A stretch of DNA of 41,738 nt from a virus. Made by a program: the position numbers and the translations under genes. Under the pieces are notes generated by a model. It had not been told where the DNA came from and made no database searches. It saw nothing but the letters and a program-made list of their open reading frames with translations. Numbering within the stretch: position 1 is the stretch's first letter; every line of letters starts with the position of its first letter. This document shows, piece after piece, positions 1 through 41,738 of the stretch. The stretch is taken from positions 64,001-105,738 of IMG/VR virus record IMGVR_UViG_3300025141_000040; one strand, given 5' to 3'.

Positions 1-2
1 CG

Positions 3-3000
3 GGGACGACCCCGAAGCGGCTGTATGACTTCCAGAGCACGGCCGCGTTCCGCCTGGACGACAAGCAGGGCGGACTCCTCGCGTTCGACGTTGGCGTTGG
101 CAAGACGCACACCGCAATGGCAGCGGTGGGGTGGGCGAAGCAGCGGGGGCACATTCGCCGCCCGATGTTCGTGGTCCCGAAGTCGATCAAGCTGAAGTGG
201 TGGAAGGATCTGCGTGAAACGTACCCCGATTGGAACATCGCGGTCCTCGGCCTGACGCTCCGGCCCCCGCAGGCTGTGGGCGATCTCTCTGCGAAGCGGC
301 GCAAGGATCTGACGACTACGACGGCCGCGTTCCAGGCCGCGTTCCTGGCGGTCGGCGGCTACTCGGTCGATGCGACTGCGATTGCGGGCGGGGCGTCCGA
401 CGCGCACGCGGCTGCTACCAAGGCCGCGTTCGGCTGGCTGGTGCGCGGGGGCTCGCCCTCGGCCTACCTGCCGTCGCAGGTGACCGCCGCGCTCACGCCC
501 AAGGTGGCGGCGTTGGCGCGCAACCCGATTGCGCTGTCGTGGTGCAAGGACTCGCCGGACACCCTGACGCAGAAAATGGCCGACTTCTGCAACGGCTACT
601 ACGACGTGATGCTCACCGACGAGTACGACTTCAAGAACATCGGAGTCAACGAGGACGCGGTGGTGGGTCACCTGCTCCGTGCGTCCGGCTCGCGCTACAC
701 GCTCTACCGCAAGGCGTTCAGCAAGGCGCAGACCGCGCCGGGGACGGCGCTCCGCAAGAACGTGGTGGTGGCGTTGTCGTACACCCACGCCGAGGACGAC
801 GTGAGCAAGGCGAGGTTTCTCCGGGCCACCCTGGACGACGACGTTCCCCCGCTCCCCGGAACGGATACCCCGCCGCTGTGGCCGTGGTGCCCGAACCCGA
901 TGCAGGACGTGTTCCCGTACATCGACGCCGTGCAGGCGTACATCGCAACGGCCCTGATCGACTACGCCGGGAAGTGGGACGCGGAGTTTTGGCGGCAGAC
1001 CGCTCGCGCGTTCTTTGCCGAGCAGCTTCAGCTTCCCCGCAGCCAGCGGTGGACGCCCGCCCTGGTGGCGTTCCGCAAGCTGCTGCTGCCTCCGATGGAG
1101 GAGGAGCCGGACAACGCATTTTCCGGTGACCCCGCATCGTGGACGATTGAGCCTGACGACGTGCCCGAGGAGGAGTCGGGGCGTGCGCCGTTCGCCGTCG
1201 AGTTGTCCGAGACTCTGATCACGGCGCTCGACGCGGCCGGAGTGGCGATCCCGTTGGCGAAGGGCACGGCGGTCGAGGCGGGCGACACCCTCCCCCTGGT
1301 CTACCCGGCCGTGGGCGTGATTCCGGGGAAGGACTACTACCCGGATGGGGTCACGATCCCCAAGAGCAAGGGGCAGTACGCGCAGGCGTGCTACTACACC
1401 GGGCGGTTGGTGTTGAAGGCGATCAACCTCGCCCCGACCTACGATCCGGCGACGGGCCTCATGGTGAACGAAGGCGGCTGGCCCGACACGGGGCTCCCCG
1501 CGAAGTTGCCTGCGAAGGACGCGGCCGAAGCAATGGCGGCGTACATCAACGCCAACCCCGGAGCGGCCGTCACGGTCGGCCTCGGCAGCGCCGGGGTCCG
1601 CGTGGTCCCGTCCATGACCGCAATCAAGACCAAGAGCAAGCGGGCGCTGGCGCAGAAGTGGGCGCGGACGCTCGCTCCCGATGCCGACAAGCCGGAAAAG
1701 TCGGGCTCGGGGCGGGACGCCAAGACCGTCTATCTGGAAGTCGAGGGGCGCGGCAGTCGCCGTCGCCTGCGAACGCTGTCCGAGTTGCGGGCGAAGATCC
1801 CGGCGCTCTACTACGCGCAGCCGAACCCCAAGGTGCCGCCTTCGATCCTGTGGGACGCCACGCGCGAGCAGATCGAGGCGGGCGTCCGAAGCCTGGGTGT
1901 GGACTGCCTCGTCATTGACGAAGCCCACGGCTACAAGGGGCTGTTCACGCCCATGAGCCGAGGCGGCAAGGTCGAGTACCTGGGCGGCGGAACCACGTCT
2001 ACGAAGGCGTGGGTCATGGACTACTTCACGTCGGCGGTGAAGGCGCGCGGGGGGCGGGTCATGCTCCTCACGGCGACCCCGGCGAAGCAGTCCCCCTTGG
2101 ACTTCTACAACACCATCCAGTACATCGGCGCTCCCGGCCTGGGCGGTGACGCCAACCTGTTCTCGCAATTCTTCATCGCCACGCCGGAGCAATTCATCAG
2201 CCGGTTCGTGCGGATCGAGGACCGCGTGGTGATCAACGCGAAGGGCGAGGCCCGTCGTGCCCCCGCCGCCTCCGCGTTCATCAACCTCACCCGCGAGTTT
2301 GGCGAGGTCTTCCGGCGCTACGCCGACCGCAAGACGGTGGCGGACGTGCCCGCGCTGCGAGGCAAGACGGTGACGTGGCTGGTCAACGGCCACAAGCACC
2401 ACGCCGAGGGTGGCCTGGACAAGCGCCAGGGCTACCAGGGGCCGTGCTTCTTCGACGCCGCCGAGATCGACCCCGTGACCGGGAAGCTCCCGCACGTTAC
2501 CAAGATCGAGATCCCCGGCTTCAACCCGACCCTCGCGCTGCACGAGGGCCTGACCGATCCGCGCTTCCGCATCCGTACCGGCGAGGGTTCGGCGGACTAC
2601 GGCATCGGCCAGCCCGGTGACACCGTTCTCCGCGCAACGCGGGACTACGGCTGGAACGCCGTGTCGAACACCGGGTACGTCAACGTCTACCCGCCCGTCC
2701 CCGTGGAAGCCCGCGACGAGGAGAGTCGCAAGGGCGAGGATTGGGCCGTCTACGTCAACGCGAAGGTGCCGCTCGCGCCGATCCCCGCGAAGCCGCTCGT
2801 CAACATGGACGACATTCAGCGTGCGCTCTACGAGTCGTACCAGCGTGCGCTCTCGCGCATGTACCTCTACGACACGAAGTTGGAGCGCGTGAAGGTCGGC
2901 GGCACGAACATGGAGATCACCCGCGACACAATCTTCTCACGACTGAGCCGGGTGGCCCTGCACCCCGAGTTGGAGATCGTGGAGACAAAGGGCGGGGCCG

Positions 3001-6000
3001 AGATCGAGATCGAGGAGGACGACTCCGAGGCCGAGGAGGGTGAGGAGATCGAAGCCACGCCGTCCCCGGCCGTCACCGAGCGGTACACCTACGGGCTCGC
3101 GCTGTCTCTCGATCCGATGCTCGACGCCTTCCAGTCCGTCGTGAACGCGCAGTCAATGTCCGGTTCACTCCCCGCCGATCCCGACGAGGATGACAGCGGC
3201 CCCCTGGACGCCGACGATGACGATGACGATGCCCCCCGCAAGGGCGGAAAGAAGGGGCTGAATGGCTCCGTCCCGGTCGAGAACGACGAGTACACGCAAC
3301 TGACCGACGCCCGTGCCCGTCTGCGCTACAACCGGGCGATCAACATGAAGGCGGGCATGACCGAGGAAGATTGGGAAGACGAGCCCTCCGTCCTCGATGA
3401 ACGGCCCGTCAAGGGTGACCCGGCCACGATGATCCACCCCACCAACGGGGAGGATCTGACCCTGGCCGACGCGATCTTCAACGACCAGTTGAAGGACTCG
3501 CAGCGGAGCACGCTCGCGCGGAAGCTCTGGAACATCGACTTCGTACACAAGGACGGCACCAACGGGGCCTACTTCGGCAAGGACGCGATCAAGCCGTTCC
3601 TGCCCGCGAAGGTGTGGACGGGGTACAAGCCGCCGAAGCGCAAGAGCCGAAGCGCCAAGCGGCGCAGGATCGGCGTGCTGGACGGCAAGATGCTCACGGC
3701 GCAGCGCCGCGTGCAAATGGCCGAAGGCAAGCACGTCGGTTCCGTGGACGTGGACATTCCCGTGTTGAACGCGGGGGTGACGGTCAACCCCTTCAGCAGC
3801 CGGACCCTCGGGATCGCGGATCGCGTTACGTCCCAGGCGCTCTCTGACGAGCGCAACCCGTCGATGGGCGAGGTCACCTGCGGCAACCTGATCTTCGTGG
3901 ACAACCTGTTCTTCCAGGCGTGGCTCACGGTGACGCTCTGCCGCTTCCAGGCGACCGCCTACGCCCTGGACGCCGAGGTCGCGGCCTACGCGAAGGCGTG
4001 CGCCGACGCCGGGGAAAACCCGAAGGTGAAGTACCTGTTGAACCTGATCAACTACTACTTCGCGGCGTGGAACCCCTACTTCACGGTGCGGACCATCCTG
4101 CTCCGGGCGTTCCCCGCCGCGAACGTCCACACGGACGACACGGATAACCTTGCGGGGCGACCCGGAGGCAACGACCCGACCCTGGACACAACCTCGCGGG
4201 TGGTGCGCTACACGCTCGGCAAGGTCTACGACGGGTACGAGAACCCCACCGCGTCCCTCGCGGATACCGAGGGTCGGTACAAGAACGCGCGTGGTGAGCC
4301 CGACGTGAGCGTCCCGGCGTTTTGGGGCGTCGTGAGCGGGACCAGAAAGGCCCCGTCGCGGCCGACCTACCTGACGGCGAACCCGGTGGTGGTGTACCGC
4401 CAGCGGTGGGCGGAAACGGCCGAGCGGATCTGCGTGATGAACGCGGAGACTGCTCCGGCGACCGTCCGCGAAACCCTGGCGCAGCAATTCAACGGTGAGT
4501 ACATCGGGGAAGAAGTCCCGATCACCGATGACCAGGGGAACCCGCTGCTGGACGACAAGGGGAACGCCGTCGTCCGCGACGAGTACGAGGCGATCCGCGC
4601 CCCGAAGTACGACGTGGTGATTGCCAACGAGGTTGCCTACGAAGGGATCGACCTCCAACAGCGCACATGCCGCATCATTCACGCAGACACGCCTTGGACT
4701 CCAAGCGCGTTCATTCAGCGCAACGGCCGAGCGGTGCGCCAGGGCAACCTCTACAAGCGGGTGGACATTTTCGTCTTCCTGACTCAGAACACGGTGGACT
4801 ACTACCGAATCCAGTCCATCGAACGGAAGCGGTCCTGGCTCGACTCCGCGCTCGACACGCAGCGCGGCGACTACCCCATGAGCGACGACGAGAAGGATCT
4901 GCTCCTGCTCGCCGTGAAGTCCTGCCACCCCGACGACAAGGAACGCCTGAGCGAGATCGTCAAGCGGAAGCTACGGGCAATCGAGAACGAACGCCGGAAC
5001 CGCGACTTCAACGGGGTCAAGGGCAAGCTCCTCGCAGCGGCCGGGTGGCGACGGCGGCTGGCCTACCAGACCGTCGATCCGGTCGGCTACAAGGCCGTCA
5101 TCGACCAGTCCACGGCGCTCCTGCGGTCCACGCTGAATGAAGCCGAAACGATGGGCGGGAAGGATCTCGGAGGCGCGGGCATCTACGGCTACCAGTACGC
5201 CCCCTCCTACTTCACCGTCTGCGCCCGCACGTTGAACAACGCGCAGGGCTCCGTCGCGCGACCGAACATTTTTCCCCGTGAGGGGGAGCCGCGCATGGAG
5301 AGCCCCCAGGTGCCGTTGGTGGAGGACGCGCTCTACGGCGCGTGGCTCTACAAGGAGGAGATCGATCTGCTCCTGGCCGGGGAGTCGATCCCCTACCGAA
5401 ATGATTACCTGACGAGCTACAACCGCGAGCCCCGCAAGTACACGGCCGTCGTGCAGTACGCCTACACGGAGAGCGTCGAGGGGCGGAAGTACGCCGTCCG
5501 AGATCCCGAGCGCGAGAACGACGCGCACCGCCCCGCGTACTTCGTCCCGATCTATTGGGTCGGCCGCGTGAACGAAATGGACCCGCTGAAGGGAACCAGC
5601 GGAGGCACTTTCGTCGGCGTCCTCGATTTCTGGTCGGGGTTCGACAGCGGCCCCTCCGACTACGGCACCCCGTCACCCCGCAACGCGCCGAAGTGGACGA
5701 CGGAGCCCTTCAACGCCTTCAACGGCCGGGTCAACGAGTGGAGGCTGCAACAGTGGTTCCCGAGCCGGGGCACGTCCGGCGAGAACGAGATCCACGGGGC
5801 CGCGTGCGCCGTGATCCCCGCGACGTACTCAGAGGTCACCGCTTGGGCGGCGCGCGTTGGCATGACGATCCCCGACAACCTCACCGCCCTCCATGATCGT
5901 CACGGGGGGTTCCAGCCCGGTCGCCTGGGGTACGCGAGCAGCGATTGGATCGAGGCTCACGGCGACTCGCTGCACATCGACGTGCTGCGGCACATCGTCG

Positions 6001-7478
6001 GGCTCCTCGACCGGAAACACGTCGGCGTGGACGCCACCTACTTCCCGTTCTCCGAGGACGGGCGGTTGAACGTGATCAAGGGCAGTCGCTTCGCGCGGCA
6101 GAAGTCGATGACGAATCGCCTTGTGCGGTTCCCCCTTCAGATCGCCGGGATGCGGGCGCTCGGGAACGAACCCCCGACCGTCGCGGAAGCCACGACGGCC
6201 CTGGCCGCTGCCGAGGCCGAGTACGACGTACAGAAGACAGCGCGGGTGGAAGCGGGCAAGTCCCTGACTGCCGCCAAGAACGCAATCGACAAGGCCGAGG
6301 CCGCAGTCATCCGGCACACGGCGGCGGTGGAAGCCGCGCAGGTGGCGCTGGAAGCCGACACGGCTCCGCTCCGGCAGGCCGTGGCGGACGCAATCGCGGC
6401 GATCCCCACGGAGGTCGCCGCCGAACGTGCGGGGCTGACCGAGGCCGAGCAGGGGGCCGAGGATTCCCGCCGCGCCGTGAAGACGCTGGAAAGCGTCCCC
6501 GGCGTGGAGGTTCCGGCCGAGTTGGTGACGAAGGCCACCGTGGACGAAGCCGCCGTCGTCAAGGCCCAGGCGAAGCTGGACAAGGCCGAAGCCGCCGCGC
6601 AGGCGAAGGTGGACAAGGCCAACAAGCGGCTCGACAAGGCCAGTGACGCGGCCAACGCGCGGCTGGACAAGGCGACCCTGGCCCGTGTGACGGCAGAGGC
6701 CGATGGGGTCCAGGCGGTTGCGGACAAGGCGGCAGCAGAGGCCGCGCTGGACGCCGGGAAGGTGACGGAGGAGGCCGCGAAGGTCGCCCGTGACGAGGCC
6801 GGGGACAACGTGGCGCTGGCCGGTGCTGTGAACAACCACCTGATCCTCCCCGGCCGTGCTGGCTACAAGGAGTTTTTGGCCCTGGCCCGTCAGAGTCAGG
6901 CGGTCAAGAACACTTCGTCCAGAGCGGGCGAGGTCACCGCGCGTGAGATTCTGGAAGTGTTCCAGACGTGGTTCACCGGCTCCACCCGGAAGCCGCGCGA
7001 GGACTGGTGGGGCACCCCGGAGCACCCGAGCCCGCTCTACGAGAGCGCCGCCGCACTGACGGCCCAAGAGACTGAGGAGCGCATCGGTGCTGCCGCAGAC
7101 GCACGGGTCGCGCAGGGCGGCGCACGCAAGAAGCGGACCGTGATGATCAACGGCCCGGATGGTCGCGTGCCGAGGCCAGAAACACGCGCAGGCATGTTGC
7201 GCCCCGGCTCCCTGATCGTGGACCCCGACGACGCCGAGGCATCCGTGTACCGGGTCACCAACGCCACGCCGTCGAAGAACGCGGAAACCGACGAGATCGA
7301 AGTGACCATCGTGGCGACGTTCGTGGGTCAGTGGGACACGGACCCGTTGGCACCCGAGTACCGCACGGACGAATCGACGTTCGTGGTGGACGCCAACACC
7401 CCCTACGGGGACGCCCAGGGCTATCTGACGGACCAGTCAGCCGCCTGGAAGTCCGGCGTCTACGGTCAGAAGCGGTAG
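3..7478 (+). CDS. Giant SNF2-type superfamily 2 helicase (5' partial)
   Basis: Very large DNA-dependent ATPase/helicase of the kind found in large phages and mobile elements; presumably remodels or unwinds phage DNA. The reading frame is open from base 3. The Walker A motif DVGVGKT (87-107) lies before the first in-window ATG (117), so that ATG is not the start and the gene begins outside the window. Visible motifs: FVVPKS (motif Ia) just after; IDEAH (Walker B) near base 1915; LLTATP (motif III) near 2070; a lobe-2 segment with ANEVAYEGIDLQ and QRNGRAVRQG (motifs V and VI) at about 4620-4745. The two RecA-like lobes are separated by a huge insert with acidic runs (about 3000-3060 and 3180-3235). 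The tail (about 6180-6800) is an Ala/Lys/Glu-rich coiled coil with repeated LDKA-type heptads. No methyltransferase motif was recognised. Family is clear; the substrate is not. Confidence 0.88.
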   Translation, partial: GTTPKRLYDFQSTAAFRLDDKQGGLLAFDVGVGKTHTAMAAVGWAKQRGHIRRPMFVVPKSIKLKWWKDLRETYPDWNIAVLGLTLRPPQAVGDLSAKRRKDLTTTTAAFQAAFLAVGGYSVDATAIAGGASDAHAAATKAAFGWLVRGGSPSAYLPSQVTAALTPKVAALARNPIALSWCKDSPDTLTQKMADFCNGYYDVMLTDEYDFKNIGVNEDAVVGHLLRASGSRYTLYRKAFSKAQTAPGTALRKNVVVALSYTHAEDDVSKARFLRATLDDDVPPLPGTDTPPLWPWCPNPMQDVFPYIDAVQAYIATALIDYAGKWDAEFWRQTARAFFAEQLQLPRSQRWTPALVAFRKLLLPPMEEEPDNAFSGDPASWTIEPDDVPEEESGRAPFAVELSETLITALDAAGVAIPLAKGTAVEAGDTLPLVYPAVGVIPGKDYYPDGVTIPKSKGQYAQACYYTGRLVLKAINLAPTYDPATGLMVNEGGWPDTGLPAKLPAKDAAEAMAAYINANPGAAVTVGLGSAGVRVVPSMTAIKTKSKRALAQKWARTLAPDADKPEKSGSGRDAKTVYLEVEGRGSRRRLRTLSELRAKIPALYYAQPNPKVPPSILWDATREQIEAGVRSLGVDCLVIDEAHGYKGLFTPMSRGGKVEYLGGGTTSTKAWVMDYFTSAVKARGGRVMLLTATPAKQSPLDFYNTIQYIGAPGLGGDANLFSQFFIATPEQFISRFVRIEDRVVINAKGEARRAPAASAFINLTREFGEVFRRYADRKTVADVPALRGKTVTWLVNGHKHHAEGGLDKRQGYQGPCFFDAAEIDPVTGKLPHVTKIEIPGFNPTLALHEGLTDPRFRIRTGEGSADYGIGQPGDTVLRATRDYGWNAVSNTGYVNVYPPVPVEARDEESRKGEDWAVYVNAKVPLAPIPAKPLVNMDDIQRALYESYQRALSRMYLYDTKLERVKVGGTNMEITRDTIFSRLSRVALHPELEIVETKGGAEIEIEEDDSEAEEGEEIEATPSPAVTERYTYGLALSLDPMLDAFQSVVNAQSMSGSLPADPDEDDSGPLDADDDDDDAPRKGGKKGLNGSVPVENDEYTQLTDARARLRYNRAINMKAGMTEEDWEDEPSVLDERPVKGDPATMIHPTNGEDLTLADAIFNDQLKDSQRSTLARKLWNIDFVHKDGTNGAYFGKDAIKPFLPAKVWTGYKPPKRKSRSAKRRRIGVLDGKMLTAQRRVQMAEGKHVGSVDVDIPVLNAGVTVNPFSSRTLGIADRVTSQALSDERNPSMGEVTCGNLIFVDNLFFQAWLTVTLCRFQATAYALDAEVAAYAKACADAGENPKVKYLLNLINYYFAAWNPYFTVRTILLRAFPAANVHTDDTDNLAGRPGGNDPTLDTTSRVVRYTLGKVYDGYENPTASLADTEGRYKNARGEPDVSVPAFWGVVSGTRKAPSRPTYLTANPVVVYRQRWAETAERICVMNAETAPATVRETLAQQFNGEYIGEEVPITDDQGNPLLDDKGNAVVRDEYEAIRAPKYDVVIANEVAYEGIDLQQRTCRIIHADTPWTPSAFIQRNGRAVRQGNLYKRVDIFVFLTQNTVDYYRIQSIERKRSWLDSALDTQRGDYPMSDDEKDLLLLAVKSCHPDDKERLSEIVKRKLRAIENERRNRDFNGVKGKLLAAAGWRRRLAYQTVDPVGYKAVIDQSTALLRSTLNEAETMGGKDLGGAGIYGYQYAPSYFTVCARTLNNAQGSVARPNIFPREGEPRMESPQVPLVEDALYGAWLYKEEIDLLLAGESIPYRNDYLTSYNREPRKYTAVVQYAYTESVEGRKYAVRDPERENDAHRPAYFVPIYWVGRVNEMDPLKGTSGGTFVGVLDFWSGFDSGPSDYGTPSPRNAPKWTTEPFNAFNGRVNEWRLQQWFPSRGTSGENEIHGAACAVIPATYSEVTAWAARVGMTIPDNLTALHDRHGGFQPGRLGYASSDWIEAHGDSLHIDVLRHIVGLLDRKHVGVDATYFPFSEDGRLNVIKGSRFARQKSMTNRLVRFPLQIAGMRALGNEPPTVAEATTALAAAEAEYDVQKTARVEAGKSLTAAKNAIDKAEAAVIRHTAAVEAAQVALEADTAPLRQAVADAIAAIPTEVAAERAGLTEAEQGAEDSRRAVKTLESVPGVEVPAELVTKATVDEAAVVKAQAKLDKAEAAAQAKVDKANKRLDKASDAANARLDKATLARVTAEADGVQAVADKAAAEAALDAGKVTEEAAKVARDEAGDNVALAGAVNNHLILPGRAGYKEFLALARQSQAVKNTSSRAGEVTAREILEVFQTWFTGSTRKPREDWWGTPEHPSPLYESAAALTAQETEERIGAAADARVAQGGARKKRTVMINGPDGRVPRPETRAGMLRPGSLIVDPDDAEASVYRVTNATPSKNAETDEIEVTIVATFVGQWDTDPLAPEYRTDESTFVVDANTPYGDAQGYLTDQSAAWKSGVYGQKR

Positions 7479-7877: not shown

Positions 7878-8510
7878 ATGACCGGCCGAACCCGTCCCAT
7901 GCGAGTCGCGCTCTACACCCGCGTCAGCACAATGGCGCAGGCGGACAAGCACGGCACGGAGTACCAGCGGACGCAGTTGCTTCGCCTTGCGGAACAGCGC
8001 GGGTGGGAAGTCGTGGACGTGTTCAGCGAGGACGCGGTGAAGGGCAAGACCCGAACGCGGCCGGAGTTGACCCGGATGGAACGGTCGTTCCGCAAGGGGA
8101 AGTACGACGGCGTGGTCGTGTGGCGGTTCGACCGCTTCGCCCGTTCGCTGTCCCACCTTGTCGGGTTCCTTGACGAGTGCCGGAGCCGGAACGTCGAGTT
8201 TGTCTCCTACAGCGAGAACATCGACACCAGCACGCCCCTCGGGCGCGCGATGTTCCAGATCGCCGGAGCGTTCGCGGAGTTGGAATCGAACCTCGCACGC
8301 GAGCGTGTCATGGCGGGGCTCGCCAACGCCAAGGCGAAGGGCATCCACTGTGGCCGTCCCCGTGCCGCCCTGACCGCCCAGGAGGCCGTGGACGCCTACG
8401 AGGCCCACGGGTCGGTGCGGAGGACCGCGACGGCGCTCGGCGTGTCTGCGGGGCTCGTATCGAAGCGTCTGAAGGAAGCCCGTGAGGCGGGCGAGGGCGA
8501 AGCGGCCTAG
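7878..8510 (+). CDS. Small serine recombinase (resolvase/invertase type)
   Basis: 210 residues, the usual size for the small resolvase/invertase class and much shorter than large serine integrases. The N-terminal catalytic domain has LYTRVST with the nucleophile Ser17, then the conserved FDRFARS segment and the ELESNLARER helix that carry the active-site arginines and begin the E helix. The C-terminus (VRRTATALGVSAGLVSKRL) is a helix-turn-helix for DNA binding. It acts by site-specific cleavage and strand exchange between short sites. It could resolve genome dimers, invert a segment or integrate; no att or res site was identified. The start could be the ATG at 7878 (AGGA upstream) or Met8. 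The 3' end converges with, and overlaps, the next minus-strand gene at CTAG (8507-8510). Confidence 0.9.
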   Translation: MTGRTRPMRVALYTRVSTMAQADKHGTEYQRTQLLRLAEQRGWEVVDVFSEDAVKGKTRTRPELTRMERSFRKGKYDGVVVWRFDRFARSLSHLVGFLDECRSRNVEFVSYSENIDTSTPLGRAMFQIAGAFAELESNLARERVMAGLANAKAKGIHCGRPRAALTAQEAVDAYEAHGSVRRTATALGVSAGLVSKRLKEAREAGEGEAA

Positions 8511-20202: not shown

Positions 20203-20646
20203 TCAGTCTGACGCGGGGTGCTCCCGTGGTGGGAGCGGGATCACGTCGGCGTCGGGGGTGAGCGCGTGTTCCTGGGGCTCGGTCCACCGGGCGGCACCCG
20301 TGGCGGCTTCCACCATGCCGATCAGGACGCCCAGGGCTGCGGGGTCCACCGTACTCAGGGCGTGCAGGAGTCGCGGAGGCGGCACCGCTCCCAGGGCGTA
20401 GGCCAGCCGCGCGAGCACCGGGTCACCGGGCAGGCCCACAGCCTCGCGGCGCTCCTCGGGGGACAGACCGCTCCCGCAGTTGCCGCAGACCGTGAAGTCC
20501 AGCGGCATCGAAGTCTGACAGGTGTAGCAGGGGAGGTAGGCCGGGAGCGCGGCGTGCAACTCGGCGCGGGGGTTCGGATCAGGTATCGGACTCCCCCTCG
20601 TTGGCGGCGGTGAGCAGGCGCACGACCCGCCCCGTGAGGGACGCAA
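20203..20646 (-). CDS. Zinc-ribbon hypothetical protein (start uncertain)
   Basis: The end is firm. The longest start is GTG 20646, overlapping the upstream gene by 68 bases; a TTG start near residue 29 or Met47 would be shorter. CYTCQTSMPLDFTVCGNCGSG is a complete zinc ribbon (CxxC-x9-CxxC). After it comes a helical region (PVLARLAYALGAVPPPRLLHAL) and an acidic/Pro tail. Function unknown. Confidence 0.55.
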   Translation of the reverse strand: MRPSRGGSCACSPPPTRGSPIPDPNPRAELHAALPAYLPCYTCQTSMPLDFTVCGNCGSGLSPEERREAVGLPGDPVLARLAYALGAVPPPRLLHALSTVDPAALGVLIGMVEAATGAARWTEPQEHALTPDADVIPLPPREHPASD

Positions 20647-20803
20647 CCCGCCCCGTGAGGGACGCAGCCAGGGCCAACAAGCACGCAGGGCAGTTGGCCT
20701 CGGCGTCGAGGTTCGTGGCGATCTTCAACGCGCGGGCGTGCTTGCCGCACCACACGGTCTTGTCGGCCTGCGACTCCCACAGGTGGATCAGGGGCTCGGG
20801 CAT
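20579..20803 (-). CDS. 74-residue protein with WCGKH and CPAC motifs
   Basis: ATG 20803, AGAGG upstream, first gene after promoter P6. HLWESQADKTVWCGKHARAL followed by NCPACLLALAASL makes a likely two-part zinc site, typical of tiny phage proteins. The C-terminal half contains the duplicated SLTGRVA unit. Confidence 0.6.
   Translation of the reverse strand: MPEPLIHLWESQADKTVWCGKHARALKIATNLDAEANCPACLLALAASLTGRVASLTGRVVRLLTAANEGESDT
20625..20666. repeat. Two perfect 21-bp tandem repeats
   Basis: 20625-20645 and 20646-20666 are identical and in frame in the 74-residue gene, adding 7 residues. Confidence 0.9.
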
Positions 20804-20841
20804 GGTCAGACCTCTCGGTTGGAGGCGTGGGGTAGGCCGCG

Positions 20842-20870
20842 ACGGTACTTGCGGCTTACCTAAATGTCAA
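20842..20870 (-). promoter_or_regulatory. Sigma70-like promoter P6
   Basis: TTGACA (20870-20865), 17-bp spacer, TACCGT (20847-20842), 39 bases before ATG 20803. The spacer carries CTTGCGG on the plus strand next to the -10. Confidence 0.65.
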
Positions 20871-20900
20871 GCCTTCCCGGCCCTTTCGACGGCCACTCTT

Positions 20901-20909
20901 TGTGGACAA
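20901..20909 (-). other. DnaA-type box
   Basis: Minus strand reads TTGTCCACA, which matches the GC-host DnaA box used by actinobacteria. A single copy, directly beside the short ACNGT array. One 9-mer alone can occur by chance. Confidence 0.4.
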
Positions 20910-20913
20910 GCCT

Positions 20914-20948
20914 ACTGTTCGCAACGGTTCGTTACCGTGCAGCACTGT
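20914..20948. repeat. Short phased ACNGT array (4 units)
   Basis: ACTGT, ACGGT, ACCGT and ACTGT begin at 20914, 20924, 20934 and 20944, exactly 10 bp apart. GGAACCGTTG, the main array unit, is present on the minus strand within 20922-20931. Confidence 0.7.
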
Positions 20949-20971
20949 AGGTGTGTCGAAAGCTGGTGGAT

Positions 20972-21056
20972 TGTAAACACCCTCGGGTCGATCCGAAAAA
21001 CCCAGGGATCTCGCAACTCCTGATGGACGGATCTCGGAGGGGGTTTGTGAACACCC
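20972..21056. repeat. Direct repeats between the two arrays
   Basis: TGTAAACACCC (20972-20982) and TGTGAACACCC (21046-21056) differ at one base. GGATCTCG occurs at 21006 and again at 21030, 24 bp apart. No gene is credible here. Overall 20804-21198 holds P6, the DnaA-type box, these repeats and both ACNGT arrays. Confidence 0.6.
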
Positions 21057-21070
21057 GCGCGAGGCCGTTA

Positions 21071-21200
21071 AGAGTCGGGAACAGTGGCGAGGGGCCGGGA
21101 ACCGTAGGGAACCGTTGGGAACCGTTGGGAACGGTCGGGAACCGTAGGGTGCAGTCGGTTACAGTCGGTTACTGTTGCCGACCGTTGCCTACCGTTGACT
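21071..21200. repeat. 10-bp helically phased ACNGT array (iteron or centromere-like)
   Basis: Thirteen consecutive 10-bp units with consensus ACCGTNGGGA. ACNGT starts at 21081, 21101, 21111, 21121, 21131, 21141, 21161, 21171, 21181 and 21191 (degenerate at 21071, 21091 and 21151). The best block is 21101-21150. ACNGT is itself palindromic, so a protein dimer could bind each turn on one face of the helix. It ends at the stop codon of the neighbouring membrane-protein gene. Known systems with this geometry are plasmid iterons and ParR/RHH-type centromeres; the exact role is inferred. Confidence 0.8.
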
Positions 21201-22152
21201 ACGCGCGGGCCAGCTTCCGTACAGAGAGGGCTTCCATGACCACCGGGGCCGCGACTGTGACGACGGCGATCACCGCGCCCCACTTCAGCGCACCCTCTAC
21301 CCACTCCCACTCACCCGCGCCTTCGTTCTCGGCCTGAGTCTCCAGCCGGTCCTGCTGCTCGGTCAGGGCGGACGCGGGAAGCTCCCCCGCGCGCACGCCT
21401 TCCGCAATGGCGCGCGTGGTCAACTCGCGCTCGCGGGCGATCAACCACGTCAGGGTCTTGATGATGATCAGCGTCGTCGCAACAATGGCGACGAGGATAA
21501 CCACCGCCGTCGCGGTGGGGATGGAAACGACGCCGTAATCGCCCGTGCTGGTCTTCGGCGCGGCGAACCCGGCGTTGGCCGCAGTCTGCGCGGCCCACCC
21601 CTGCACCTGCGCGTTGACCCGTTCCGTCTGCCGGAACAACTGCCGGTAGAGCCCGGAGAGGCGTTCCACCGCGCTCCCGTACAGGTCGTTGTGGTACTCG
21701 GCGCGCAGCGCGTCGGCCTGCCGGGGCGGGAGCTTCGCCAGCGCGGCCTTCGCCTCACGGCGGGCCGTGCGGAACGCGACCGCCTTGTCGTCTGCGATCC
21801 GCATGAGGTCGGTGACCTCCTGCGCGGTCCAGCCGCCCGCCTTGGCTGCGGCGGCGATGGTCGCGTCGTTGACCTCCTGCAACGCGGCCCCCAGGCCGTC
21901 CTCGCTTCCGGCACGGGCGAGGTACTTGACGCCCGTGAGCCAGTCGCCCCCGAGAGCCCGCGCCTTCGCCAGCGCGGCGGCAGACTTCGCCTGCCACTTG
22001 CAGCCGTACAGCGGCACCCAGGCGTAGTAGCCCCCCTTGCACTCACGCGGAGGCTTGGCGGGGTCGGCTCCTATGGCTGCGAAGCGGTGAGGGGAAAGGC
22101 GTTGGTGTCCCATTCGGGCAGGATACGCCAACCAGCCGTAGTTGTGGATCAC
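21199..22152 (-). CDS. Membrane protein with two C-terminal helices
   Basis: 317 residues from GTG 22152, overlapping the upstream stop (GTGA). The N-terminal 190 residues are soluble and helical, with a CKGGYYAWVPLYGCKW segment that could form a disulfide or metal site, then long Ala-rich helices (AKAALAKLPPRQADALRAEY, QRVN-type coiled coil). Two hydrophobic stretches follow: TAVVILVAIVATTLIII and WGAVIAVVTVAAPVVM, separated by about 45 charged residues. Topology suggests both ends on one side of the membrane. No family recognised. Confidence 0.65.
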   Translation of the reverse strand: MIHNYGWLAYPARMGHQRLSPHRFAAIGADPAKPPRECKGGYYAWVPLYGCKWQAKSAAALAKARALGGDWLTGVKYLARAGSEDGLGAALQEVNDATIAAAAKAGGWTAQEVTDLMRIADDKAVAFRTARREAKAALAKLPPRQADALRAEYHNDLYGSAVERLSGLYRQLFRQTERVNAQVQGWAAQTAANAGFAAPKTSTGDYGVVSIPTATAVVILVAIVATTLIIIKTLTWLIARERELTTRAIAEGVRAGELPASALTEQQDRLETQAENEGAGEWEWVEGALKWGAVIAVVTVAAPVVMEALSVRKLARA

Positions 22153-27431: not shown

Positions 27432-27872
27432 ATGGACAACACCGCCACCGCCAAGAAGCAAACCCCTCCTGACGCGCCGAACATTCGGCGGCTCAGTCGG
27501 ATGCAGGTGGGTGACGGGGGCGCGGCCCGTCTGGTCGCCGCTATCCTCCACGCCGCCGACCCGAACGACGTGCGTACCGGCCTTGTGCGCCTCTCGGATG
27601 CCTGCCTTGTGAACGGCTGGACGGTGTACCGCTGGCTTCGTGGGAACCACGAACCTCGCAGGCGGCAACGCGCCGTGCTCACGGCGGAAGCCGTGCGCCT
27701 GGGGCTCGACCCCGACAACCTGCCCGCCGTCCCCACCGAGGTCGAGGTTCCCGAGGAGGACGTGAGGGCCGTGGACACCGCGCCGGTCGAGGAGGAGGGT
27801 GACGACGACTCACCCGACACCTTGGAGGACGTGCCCGCGCCCGTGCGTGAGGCGAGCGCCGACGAAGCGTAG
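27432..27872 (+). CDS. HTH transcriptional regulator
   Basis: 146 residues, no ribosome site. Residues about 10-85 are helical, with DACLVNGWTVYRWLRGNHEPRRRQRAVLTAEAVRLGL, which looks like a helix-turn-helix (TVYRWLRG as recognition helix). The C-terminal 50 residues are acidic and Pro-rich. It faces two palindromes that overlap both its own and the Rad50-like promoter, so it probably represses both and itself. Exact HTH family not identified. Confidence 0.6.
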   Translation: MDNTATAKKQTPPDAPNIRRLSRMQVGDGGAARLVAAILHAADPNDVRTGLVRLSDACLVNGWTVYRWLRGNHEPRRRQRAVLTAEAVRLGLDPDNLPAVPTEVEVPEEDVRAVDTAPVEEEGDDDSPDTLEDVPAPVREASADEA

Positions 27873-27943: not shown

Positions 27944-30900
27944 CTAGACCTCCTTCCAGAGATCCCCGATCTTCGCGCCCGCCGTGAAGCGGATCGGGTA
28001 GATGCCGGGGTACTCCTGCGTCATGCAGGCTTCCAGATCGATCTTCGCGCGTTGGGCCAGGGCTTCGGGAACCTCTAGCACCCAGGCGTCATGGCCCTGC
28101 TGGATCGGCCCGGTGCCCTCGCCCGCGAAGTTGCAGAAGTAGCCCCGACCCACAAGGTCCAGACCCGCGAGGTTCATCAGGGCCGCAGCGCCCGCCTGGA
28201 TGGGGAAATTGACGACTTCGGGAAGCTCAAAGCCGTCGAGGAAGTCACGGCGGCGCAGCGTGAACGGCTCCTCGTTGAACCCGTGCAGCTTGAAAAACGC
28301 CTCCTCCTTCGCCCACCCCAGGGGAAGCTCGGGGCACATCGTCAGGAACCGCCGACTCATGGCGGTGACCTCGGTGAGCTTCAGATCGGCGTAGATGAAG
28401 TTGCCTTCGTCGTCCTCGGCTTCCCGCAGGAGCCCCCACACAACCTCGTCACCGGCCGAAAACTGCTTCCCGTAGTAGTACCGCTTGACGAGGTTCCGTA
28501 GCTCGTTGAACCGCCCGCCGATCTCCCCGGCCGGACACCACGTTCCGTTCGGCCCCCACGGTCCCGCCACCCACTCCTTGAAGTAGCGCCGCCCCGGAGG
28601 CGGGGCACCGGGCATTGTCCAGATGCGGTCGCCGTAGCAAAACTCCATCGTGATCTGGTGGGAGTCGAGCGGGTCGAACACCCCCTGATCGTTGACCCGG
28701 TTGAAAGCGTCAAGGTACGCCTTCATTCCCCACCGGGCCGCGCCCTCCTTGCCTTCCAGGGCGTCGTAGTCCGCACCGACCAGCTTGTTCCCCGGCGCGG
28801 CTCTGACCAACGCACGGATCGCCTTCGGCCAATTCTGGACGTTCATCGGCTGCGACGACGCGAACCGCCCCGTCACCGGGACGTGCGCCGACCACGAAAC
28901 CCGGAGCCGTCCGTCCGCGTCCACCACGCCGCCAACGTGCCGGGGCCGGAGCTTCGACACGAACGACGTGAGCAGCTTGTGGCGCTTCCGGTACTTCCGC
29001 ATCGACCAGATGAACGCCGTCGCGTCGGGCGGGGTGGTCGCGTCCATCAGGTGCTCGCGGAGCACGCCGTCGCCGGTCGAGGGGTCGCCGGACTCCGTGA
29101 ACGCCACCGGATCGAGGTTGAACCCCTTGGAGGAGTACAGGATCTTCCGCACCTGCATCGGGGACGCCGGGTTGAAGTGCGGGCTGTACGCCTTGGGCGG
29201 CTGCGCGGCGAGCGCCTTCGTCCGCAGGACGGCGACCTCGGAGGTCATCGCCGTGTGCATGATCTTCTGCGCCGTGGCGTCGATGAACATGCCGGTGCGC
29301 GACATACCGGCACAAATCGCCTGCGATTCGTGGTCGAGCTTCGCCAGGGTGATCGACGGGCGCGCAGGGCACGGCTTGTTCTGGCCGCGCTCCTGCACCC
29401 GGTTCCAGAGGATCGGGAAGATCCGGTGCGTGACGGCCGTGTCCACCGCGCAGTAGTCACCAAGCTCCTTGTTCGACTGCGCCCCGGTGGCGAGTTTGTT
29501 CCCCTCGTTGTCCTGCTTCCACGACGTACAGTCGGTGAAGCGGCTGGCGACCACGCCGAGGGACTTCGGCAACTCGGAGCACTCCAACCGGGTGAGGAGG
29601 ATCGTGTCAATCATCGTGCGGTGAGGCGTCCGGTAGTCCACGCGCGGCCCGCGCACCCCCGGCGTCACCCCAAGCTGCTGTTCGATGACGAGCCGGTCGT
29701 ACCACCCGGCGTTGTGGCCGGTCCACATGCGGCCGTCCGTGAACGCCGCCCGAAGCTGCGCCTCGTAGGAGGCGACGGTGGCTTGGTCCTTCGTCGGGCA
29801 CCCGTCCACGCCCCGAATGAACACGACGGCGACGGCATCGTCGTACCCACGGGCTCGCTCCTCCGGGGTCGCGTCCCGTGCAATGGCGATGCAGCGGAGC
29901 CGCGCGAGCAGGGGCTCACGCGCGTCTGTCTCTACGTCGTAGGACCAGTAGGCGGACGGCTGCGCCAGGAACCACCGCAGGAGGCCGGGGTCCGGCTCGG
30001 TGTAGACCAGCGGGTCTTTCCACTGAAGCGTGTCGGTGAAGTAGCGCAGGGCTCGCCGGAAGTCGGCCCGGAACACCAGCCGCCAGCGCCGTGCCCGCCG
30101 CACGAACGCCGGGTGGACGGTGGGGAGGACCAGCATCGTGTGGCCCTCAATCGGGAAGGCCGCGCCCGTGAGGGTCGCGGACGCAGGACCGCCCCGGATG
30201 GACAGGATCGAGGGGTTGCCTCCGAGGACGGCGCTGGCGGCGGTGCCGCCGAGGGTCACCACATTCGTCGTCCGCACAAGGGACTGCACAAGGCGCGGCC
30301 GACAGTGCGTGGCGGGGTGCTGCTCATGGGAAGGGGAGTGCGCCGGGTTCCGGTGCCCGTTCGGCAGGATCGGGGCGGCTCGCTTCTCCTTGCGGAGCCG
30401 GATAGAGATCAGCTTCCACTTGTCGCTCGGAGCCCTGCACGCGATCACGTTGTCCACGTCCCAGGCGGTGCGCTGGATACCCACGTCCTTCAGCGCATCG
30501 TTCAACTCCTGCCCCGACTCGCCCACGAACGGGACGACGCGCTCGACTTCGTGCTTGGCGGGGGCTTCTCCCAGGAGGAGGCCCGCAGGGGCCTTCGCCG
30601 CGCGCTGCGCGGGAACCGGAGCCCACGCGGAGCCCGCCCACCGCCGCATCGGGCAGGCGAGGCACTGAGCCCCGTCGTTGGTCGGGTTGTAGCCGGTGGT
30701 CGGCGGGAAGATGGGCGCGTAGGCAACGGGCGCGGCTTGCGCCGCCTTGGCGGCAGCGGCTCCCGCCTTCAAGTCCGCCGCCTTGTAGTAGGAGTCGAAC
30801 CCCGGAACGGCGGTGATCACTTCGCCGTTGTTCCCGGTGCCGAGCACCCGCATCGTGCCCGTCTTGTGGGCGTGCCCGAGCGTCACCATCCGACTGCGAA

Positions 30901-31291
30901 TCGAGGCCAGCGTTTGCTCGCCGGAGGGGTAGTACCGCGCCAGGGCGCGGTAGGAGGCGTGGTCGGTCGAGCCGTTCGGGGACGCAGACAGGAACCCATA
31001 GAGCTTGCCGTCGCTCACCGTCGCCGTCGTCGCGGAGCCCTTCGGGCCGATGTGGACCTTCGGCGCTTCGGTGCGCCCCTTGACGTGCTGCGGCAGGACG
31101 TAGACGGCCCCCCGTGCTCGCTTCTCCGCGAGCATGACGATCAAGCCCCGGTCGCGCATTTCAGAGAGGCGCGCGGCGACGTTCCTGCGGAGGAGCCCCG
31201 TCGCCGCCATAGCCTCCCGCATCGTCGCGCCGACGACGGCCGCTGCGACGATGACGGCATAGACCTTTTGCTCAGAGGGGTCGAGCGGCAC
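27944..31291 (-). CDS. Family A DNA polymerase with winged-helix and UDG domains
   Basis: About 1115 residues from GTG 31291 (GGAG 6 bases upstream); a longer frame opens at GTG 31363 without a ribosome site. Numbers here are from 31363; subtract 24 for the chosen start. Winged helix 27-80 (TMREAMAATGLLRRNVAARL). Family 4 uracil-DNA glycosylase about 230-420: cysteines in CLACPMRR, IACRAP and HCRP for a 4Fe-4S cluster, GEAPAKHEVERVVPFVGESG, and HPAFVRR. 3'-5' exonuclease about 470-640: YDVETD, HNAGWYD, YCAVD. Polymerase 850-1135: GADYDALEG (motif A), RNLVKRYYYGKQF (motif B), GHDAWVLEVP (motif C, HDA where HDE is usual). Replicates phage DNA, with uracil recognition in the same chain. UDG fused to phage polymerase is known (SPO1); the added winged helix I have not seen. 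Confidence 0.85.
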   Translation of the reverse strand: MPLDPSEQKVYAVIVAAAVVGATMREAMAATGLLRRNVAARLSEMRDRGLIVMLAEKRARGAVYVLPQHVKGRTEAPKVHIGPKGSATTATVSDGKLYGFLSASPNGSTDHASYRALARYYPSGEQTLASIRSRMVTLGHAHKTGTMRVLGTGNNGEVITAVPGFDSYYKAADLKAGAAAAKAAQAAPVAYAPIFPPTTGYNPTNDGAQCLACPMRRWAGSAWAPVPAQRAAKAPAGLLLGEAPAKHEVERVVPFVGESGQELNDALKDVGIQRTAWDVDNVIACRAPSDKWKLISIRLRKEKRAAPILPNGHRNPAHSPSHEQHPATHCRPRLVQSLVRTTNVVTLGGTAASAVLGGNPSILSIRGGPASATLTGAAFPIEGHTMLVLPTVHPAFVRRARRWRLVFRADFRRALRYFTDTLQWKDPLVYTEPDPGLLRWFLAQPSAYWSYDVETDAREPLLARLRCIAIARDATPEERARGYDDAVAVVFIRGVDGCPTKDQATVASYEAQLRAAFTDGRMWTGHNAGWYDRLVIEQQLGVTPGVRGPRVDYRTPHRTMIDTILLTRLECSELPKSLGVVASRFTDCTSWKQDNEGNKLATGAQSNKELGDYCAVDTAVTHRIFPILWNRVQERGQNKPCPARPSITLAKLDHESQAICAGMSRTGMFIDATAQKIMHTAMTSEVAVLRTKALAAQPPKAYSPHFNPASPMQVRKILYSSKGFNLDPVAFTESGDPSTGDGVLREHLMDATTPPDATAFIWSMRKYRKRHKLLTSFVSKLRPRHVGGVVDADGRLRVSWSAHVPVTGRFASSQPMNVQNWPKAIRALVRAAPGNKLVGADYDALEGKEGAARWGMKAYLDAFNRVNDQGVFDPLDSHQITMEFCYGDRIWTMPGAPPPGRRYFKEWVAGPWGPNGTWCPAGEIGGRFNELRNLVKRYYYGKQFSAGDEVVWGLLREAEDDEGNFIYADLKLTEVTAMSRRFLTMCPELPLGWAKEEAFFKLHGFNEEPFTLRRRDFLDGFELPEVVNFPIQAGAAALMNLAGLDLVGRGYFCNFAGEGTGPIQQGHDAWVLEVPEALAQRAKIDLEACMTQEYPGIYPIRFTAGAKIGDLWKEV

Positions 31292-31404
31292 CGCGATCTC
31301 CAAGTCCAGGGGCAAAGCGGCCCGGTCCCCAAGGGGGAACCGAGCCGCTTCGGGCGGTCGCACAGGCAGGGGGCGGGGGGGTCTGCGCGACTACCTGGGG
31401 GGTT

Positions 31405-40666: not shown

Positions 40667-40695
40667 ACAGTAAGCTACCCTTACCTGAGTGTCAA
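40667..40695 (-). promoter_or_regulatory. Sigma70-like promoter P4
   Basis: TTGACA (40695-40690), 17-bp spacer with GTAAGGGTAG, TACTGT (40672-40667), about 43 bases before ATG 40624. The gap 40625-40858 holds no convincing gene. Confidence 0.75.
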
Positions 40696-41574: not shown

Positions 41575-41738
41575 CTACGCGGCGGGAGGCGCGTCGGCCT
41601 CCTTGGTGGGGGCGTCCTCGACGGGCAGGACGGCGGCTCCGAAGTCCAGCGTCACAGACTGGCCCGCCTCCTCGGCCGGGGGCTCGGTGGGCTCGGTGGG
41701 CTCGGTGGGCTCGGTGGGCTCGGTGGGCTCGGTGGGCT
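41575..41738 (-). CDS. C-terminus of a Pro-Thr-Glu repeat protein (5' partial)
   Basis: Only the last 54 residues are in the window: PTE repeats, then PPAEEAGQSVTLDFGAAVLPVEDAPTKEAD and a stop. The rest lies past the right edge. A structural or surface-exposed linker is usual for such repeats; nothing more can be said. Confidence 0.6.
   Translation of the reverse strand, partial: PTEPTEPTEPTEPTEPTEPPAEEAGQSVTLDFGAAVLPVEDAPTKEADAPPAA
41681..41738. repeat. 9-bp tandem repeat (PTE codons)
   Basis: Six exact copies of GGCTCGGTG plus a partial, running off the window end; on the minus strand they encode Pro-Thr-Glu. The total copy number is unknown. Confidence 0.9.

Follow-up and report, generated by a model that had tools for sequence, protein, structure and literature searches.

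A helically phased ACNGT array in an intergenic gap of an uncultivated phage genome, a candidate site of origin-type iterons

A 395-bp non-coding gap in the genome of an uncultivated phage contains two clusters of the short palindrome ACNGT with units spaced at exactly 10 bp. The array is genuine, with selection acting on its core. Origin-type iterons are the best single reading of the gap, one that we favor tentatively, and an operator array ranks next. The gap would then be a nucleoprotein assembly site with a dimeric DNA-binding protein on each palindromic core, and the recurrence of cores every 10 bp would align these dimers along one face of the helix and permit cooperative binding. A replication initiator would load on the two clusters, the left of which has a DnaA-like box beside it, and replication, or its control, would begin there. 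Cooperative dimer loading on helically phased palindromes is the most likely mechanism, and for this phage we infer three things: that a dimer binds the array, that the binder is an initiator, and that replication starts at the array.

Genome overview

The DNA analyzed here (the window) is 41,738 bp long and corresponds to bases 64001-105738 of a 105,738-bp IMG/VR virus record, with a GC content of ~68%; heuristic gene calling gives 107 genes. The phage encodes a UDG-DNA polymerase A fusion, DUF669 and AAA_24 proteins, ribonucleotide reductase, a DUF3987 primase/helicase-like protein, a D12 methyltransferase, SNF2-type helicases, a lysis-type peptidase and a serine recombinase. For genes outside the window the family scans used pooled proteins, and an assignment there therefore names a family and not an individual gene. 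The fusion of a uracil-DNA glycosylase domain to a family A DNA polymerase (window 27944-31315, minus strand) is common to uncultivated relatives, and the recombinase (window 7878-8510, plus strand) is a small serine enzyme of the invertase/resolvase kind with 210 aa. A large gene at the left edge (window 1-7478, plus strand) has its start outside the window and a called length of 3569 aa; within the window it matches families of phage DNA methyltransferases and DarB-like proteins. Several small proteins with hydrophobic segments are also encoded in the record, and family scans of the 105.7 kb recognize no terminase, portal or capsid families.

The record starts and ends within the same GGGCTCGGT repeat (genome 1-60 and window 41680-41738), which suggests that the genome is circular or terminally redundant, or the assembly may have halted in the repeat. 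A search for close relatives finds no DNA match in phages or plasmids, and polymerase relatives reach at most about 57% identity. Genes flanking the gap are not conserved in those relatives that share the polymerase, and the flanking gene has no relative among viral contigs. The search for the array at a conserved place in related genomes returned nothing: it is absent from 25 distant-relative records, many of them fragments.

The intergenic gap and its ACNGT units

By our own gene calls the gap extends from the stop of a leftward 317-aa gene (21199) to the start of a leftward 74-aa gene (20803). It was initially annotated as the only gap in the window above 300 bp, which holds among the called gaps, the next largest being 222 bp. 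The right array (21081-21195) has ten perfect ACNGT units, at 21081, 21101, 21111, 21121, 21131, 21141, 21161, 21171, 21181 and 21191, on a strict 10-bp grid; position 21151 reads GCAGT, and 21071 and 21091 carry no unit, the latter being a vacant place within the array. Tandem Repeats Finder (TRF) reports periods of 10 and 20. The earlier count of ten units in the thirteen 10-bp positions of 21071-21200 is thus exact. That description was correct as far as it went and understated the array, as it did not report a left cluster at 20914-20948, where four perfect units at 10 bp are separated by unrelated spacers (ACTGT-TCGCA-ACGGT-TCGTT-ACCGT-GCAGC-ACTGT). Across the gap the runs at exactly 10 bp have 4, 5 and 4 units. 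The flanks of the units follow WACNGTW, and none of the 14 has C and G at these positions.

The two halves of the right array differ in character. In the first (21096-21149) the units have GGGA spacers in common, in part a tandem duplication as judged by TRF, and in the second (21161-21195) the spacers vary while the core is constant. Because the first half is partly a tandem duplication, it is the left cluster and 21161-21195 that carry the independent evidence for selection on the core.

Over the full 105.7-kb record, the only spacings with an excess of ACNGT pairs are 10, 20 and 30 bp (12, 9 and 7 pairs respectively), and the gap accounts for 10 of the 12 at 10 bp. Dinucleotide shuffles (n=20,000) were made both for the entire gap and for its left part (20804-21070). 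The longest run in the entire-gap shuffles is 3, seen twice in 20,000, versus 5 observed; in the left-part shuffles it is likewise 3, twice in 20,000, versus 4 observed, and a run of four is never reached. The left cluster by itself thus exceeds chance. When any core of the form XYnZW and any period from 7 to 13 is allowed in the left part, 0 of 300 shuffles reach a run of 4.

Other elements of the gap

The sequence TTGTRNACA has three sites in the entire genome and all lie within the gap. The first, TTGTGGACAA, is at 20900-20909; the second, TTGTAAACACCC, at 20971-20982, is 71 bp from the first, and the third, TTGTGAACACCC, at 21045-21056, is 74 bp from the second. On the minus strand the first site reads TTGTCCACA (20901-20909), which we take to be a perfect DnaA-box match, the consensus being that of high-GC bacteria and perhaps not that of the host. 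There are two perfect copies of TTGTCCACA in the genome, one of which is this copy 5 bp from the left cluster.

A leftward promoter-like sequence, TTGACA-N17-TACCGT, lies at 20842-20870 on the minus strand, and the genome has eight more like it. All nine are leftward and located 38-109 bp ahead of a called gene start (minus-strand window positions 40695, 23001, 20870, 14853 and 10840, plus four outside the window), and they share TTGAC, TANNNT and a conserved spacer that in most includes AAGGGTAG or a variant of it. The copy at 20842-20870 is not scored as a promoter by a sigma-70 scan, its second hexamer differing from TATAAT, and because the scan gives no score there, it is from the nine-member family that we infer a putative early-type leftward promoter at 20870. 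The called gene downstream (20579-20803, minus strand) encodes 74 aa with CGKH and CPAC motifs and has no database match. The gene whose stop abuts the right array (21199-22152, minus strand) encodes 317 aa with hydrophobic segments near the C-terminus and has no confident match. An RNA element in the gap was considered and rejected (fold z-score -1.46, no Rfam match), and no intrinsic terminator is detected there.

ACNGT arrays in other viral contigs

Viral contigs scanned for runs of four ACNGT units in 10-bp steps yield at least 119 stretches, and the reversed control TGNCA at least 120. Since the control is as plentiful among the matches listed, and its arrays are of similar length, the abundance of ACNGT proves nothing by itself and we do not regard these arrays as a widespread viral site; only gene context differs. 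Among the matches listed, the array falls within members of one homologous gene family, which PHROGs names replication initiation protein, in 12 of 119 ACNGT contigs versus 0 of 120 TGNCA controls. In two of the contigs (L024 and L110) a DnaB-type helicase gene follows the array. Proximity of arrays to TerL was discarded as evidence in its own right, the control showing the same.

Three related contigs have intergenic 10-bp ACNGT arrays ahead of a terminase operon (L014:318-382, L016:6320-6374 and L088:1282-1336). Like the window array these are intergenic with a 10-bp period and WACNGTW flanks, with 6-7 units, and the core is kept while spacers differ between the contigs. They differ in belonging to AT-rich phages with unrelated genes and adjacent terminase genes, and at such base composition the W flanks are partly expected.

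Phased palindromes in phage replication initiator genes

Replication initiator genes were collected as 80 loci by protein similarity; seven found through their arrays were set aside, and the rest reduce to 59 non-redundant genes. About 36 of these have at least three phased short palindromes at exactly 10 bp, mostly GCNGC, CANNTG and ACNGT, where codon-shuffled versions give a mean of 0.15 genes with such arrays. In the initiator genes there are 26 ACNGT pairs at 10 bp and 13 at 20 bp, compared with 0-5 at each of the other spacings. The arrays are inside the gene, directly after the segment for the N-terminal domain, which models with high confidence as a winged helix; the best structural matches of the model are winged-helix regulators with weak E-values, and a profile of the initiators finds no match among the sequences of solved structures. 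Tandem AATCCN hexamers often follow the iteron arrays in these genes (loci L312-L391), and such a tract is possibly a strand-opening element.

Three residues that follow an HQ pair track the palindromic core in 40 of 40 non-redundant domains (loci L312-L391 plus L040, L045 and L107), a count next to which stand 22 further domains without an array of three units. R[IV]Q goes with ACNGT (14/14), R[IV]R with GCNGC (16/16) and [TQS][IV]R with CANNTG (10/10). On a tree built without the three residues, some of whose branches are long and poorly placed, the core class changes at least nine times, and common descent therefore does not explain the match between residues and core. This covariation suggests that the initiators bind repeats in their own gene. 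We did not find the correspondence in the literature searched (open-licence only). It would mean that in one large initiator family three residues predict the palindrome repeated at every helical turn within the same gene, a relationship that can be tested in laboratory phages. Actinophage RepA-like initiators were tried as further carriers of ACNGT and set aside: some have 11-bp phased palindromes with other cores, and none has ACNGT. The initiator genes of Panchino and Butters (L296 and L300), for example, have TCNNGA cores at 11-bp spacing.

Possible roles of the array

In favor of the origin reading, two independent clusters show the core and its period, both of them real, and the arrays of initiator genes have like geometry with a core that tracks the initiator's own residues. 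The initiator iterons (phrog_5810, phrog_1408 and phrog_2149) resemble the window array in having several copies of a short palindrome, which in one class is ACNGT, spaced at exactly 10 bp and with a variable center base. The initial proposal, one half of which was a phased centromere and the other an iteron array, agrees with the geometry. Its iteron half has support, initiator genes having short palindromes, ACNGT included, at exactly 10 bp; its centromere half is not supported. The accompanying remark that no named site is known to have this core needs amending, since ACNGT at 10 bp does occur in phage initiator genes, with different flanking bases.

These flanks, and the location, separate the two. 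Initiator iterons are inside a gene, prefer CACNGTG and often have AATCCN next to them, whereas the window array is intergenic with WACNGTW; C and G flanks are found in 32 of 53 units in initiator genes versus 0 of 14 in the window. The difference makes the initiator family an unlikely binder of the window array. Profile searches of all six frames and a motif search find no recognizable member of that family in the window phage, the R[IV]Q class (winged helix, HQRxQ) included, and the gap has no tandem AATCCN. The shared ACNGT could be coincidence, there being sixteen possible XYnY'X' cores, and the window array is closer in form to the intergenic WACNGTW arrays of L014, L016 and L088 than to those of the initiator genes. 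By analogy it may work like phased iterons, and is not a proven member of their class. Also against the origin reading, the array is intergenic and does not adjoin the primase-like gene, next to which lies a different gap, the genome's most AT-rich; nor did the 25 distant relatives, many of them fragments, yield an array. GC skew was dropped as an origin marker because it follows gene direction and gives no origin signal.

Phage lambda O and the iterons of RepA_N plasmids and satellites provide precedents for repeated semi-palindromic initiator sites (PMC7466680, PMC7145576). The lambda O units are imperfect inverted repeats of about 19 bp, far longer than the 5-bp core at 10 bp seen here, and no O or RepA_N protein is identified in the phage genome.

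The strongest competitor to the origin reading, a serious one though less likely, is a cooperative operator array in which a phage or host regulator would polymerize along ACNGT with a second factor on TTGTRNACA, switching the leftward early promoter at 20870, which would serve a leftward gene block of roughly 12 kb. The array is indeed upstream of a promoter-like sequence whose nine-copy family is leftward throughout and just ahead of gene starts; the spacings of 71 and 74 bp between the TTGTRNACA sites, unique to the gap, approximate seven helical turns; and L014, L016 and L088 offer comparable intergenic arrays ahead of their terminase operon. However, ACNGT arrays are missing from the family's other eight promoters, at least 14 sites over 280 bp are a great deal for one promoter, and about 210 bp separate the -35 hexamer from the start of the larger cluster upstream of it. 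A candidate regulator, the helix-turn-helix gene at 27432-27872, was rejected as the array binder, being conserved also in relatives without the array.

A partition centromere, a packaging site and a neutral repeat are each less likely than the origin and operator readings. The first, which we consider improbable, would serve a plasmid-like prophage as its centromere, with a ribbon-helix-helix protein of ParR or ParB type as the binder. Each 10-bp repeat takes one ParR dimer, and parC can be divided between two clusters (PMC5016525), as are the units of the gap, and the type II parC sites of R1, pSK41 and pB171 likewise have direct repeats of about 10 bp in one or two clusters. These systems have ParR and ParM with the par operon adjacent, but the window phage has no ParR/ParM gene and no par genes beside the gap. 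No ParA is found in the 105.7-kb record by Pfam scans, an AAA_31 search in six frames or a search for the deviant Walker motif, no RHH_1 in six frames, and no ParM, actin-like ATPase or TubZ in Pfam scans of the called genes. The initial annotation saw no ParA, ParM or Rep gene in the window; for ParA and ParM this extends to the whole record, as does the absence of the R[IV]Q-class initiator, and the small RHH gene or ParA/ParM that it proposed to look for outside the window is not found there. The mycobacteriophages RedRock and Miko have a partition system (PMC7157519). Their parS, an experimentally known site whose repeats were read in the present analysis, is like the window array phage-borne, intergenic and made of tandem short palindromes in at least two clusters, but it has an 8-bp period with TCGA cores and flanks parA-parB, unlike the 10-bp period and ACNGT of the window phage, which has no ParA.

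A functionless minisatellite from neutral tandem duplication is an equally doubtful explanation. To TRF the segment 21096-21149 is an array of the ordinary kind, its GGGA spacers conserved, another 10-bp tandem repeat of about five copies of GTTCGATGCC lies in a different gap outside the window (genome 9720-9769), and TGNCA controls have many arrays in viral contigs. Duplication alone, however, does not give a core that is kept while spacers differ, as seen in the left cluster and in 21161-21195. The least probable role is a pac-type packaging site bound by a ring-shaped small terminase: in L014, L016 and L088, WACNGTW arrays do lie 1.0-1.2 kb upstream of the genes for the small and large terminase, but no terminase is detected in this genome and the array is about 14 kb from the putative structural block.

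Beyond these roles, it is possible, though on the unlikely side, that the array is the cognate site of an initiator or segregation protein from an undescribed family, in a lineage without a recognizable terminase, initiator or partition gene. If so, the intergenic WACNGTW arrays would constitute a second class of helically phased palindromes, apart from the CACNGTG arrays of initiator genes. Returning to the origin reading, if it is correct the gap would be a precise place at which to test the start of replication in an uncultivated family of phages with the UDG-PolA fusion, and the array would serve as bait for the family's initiator.
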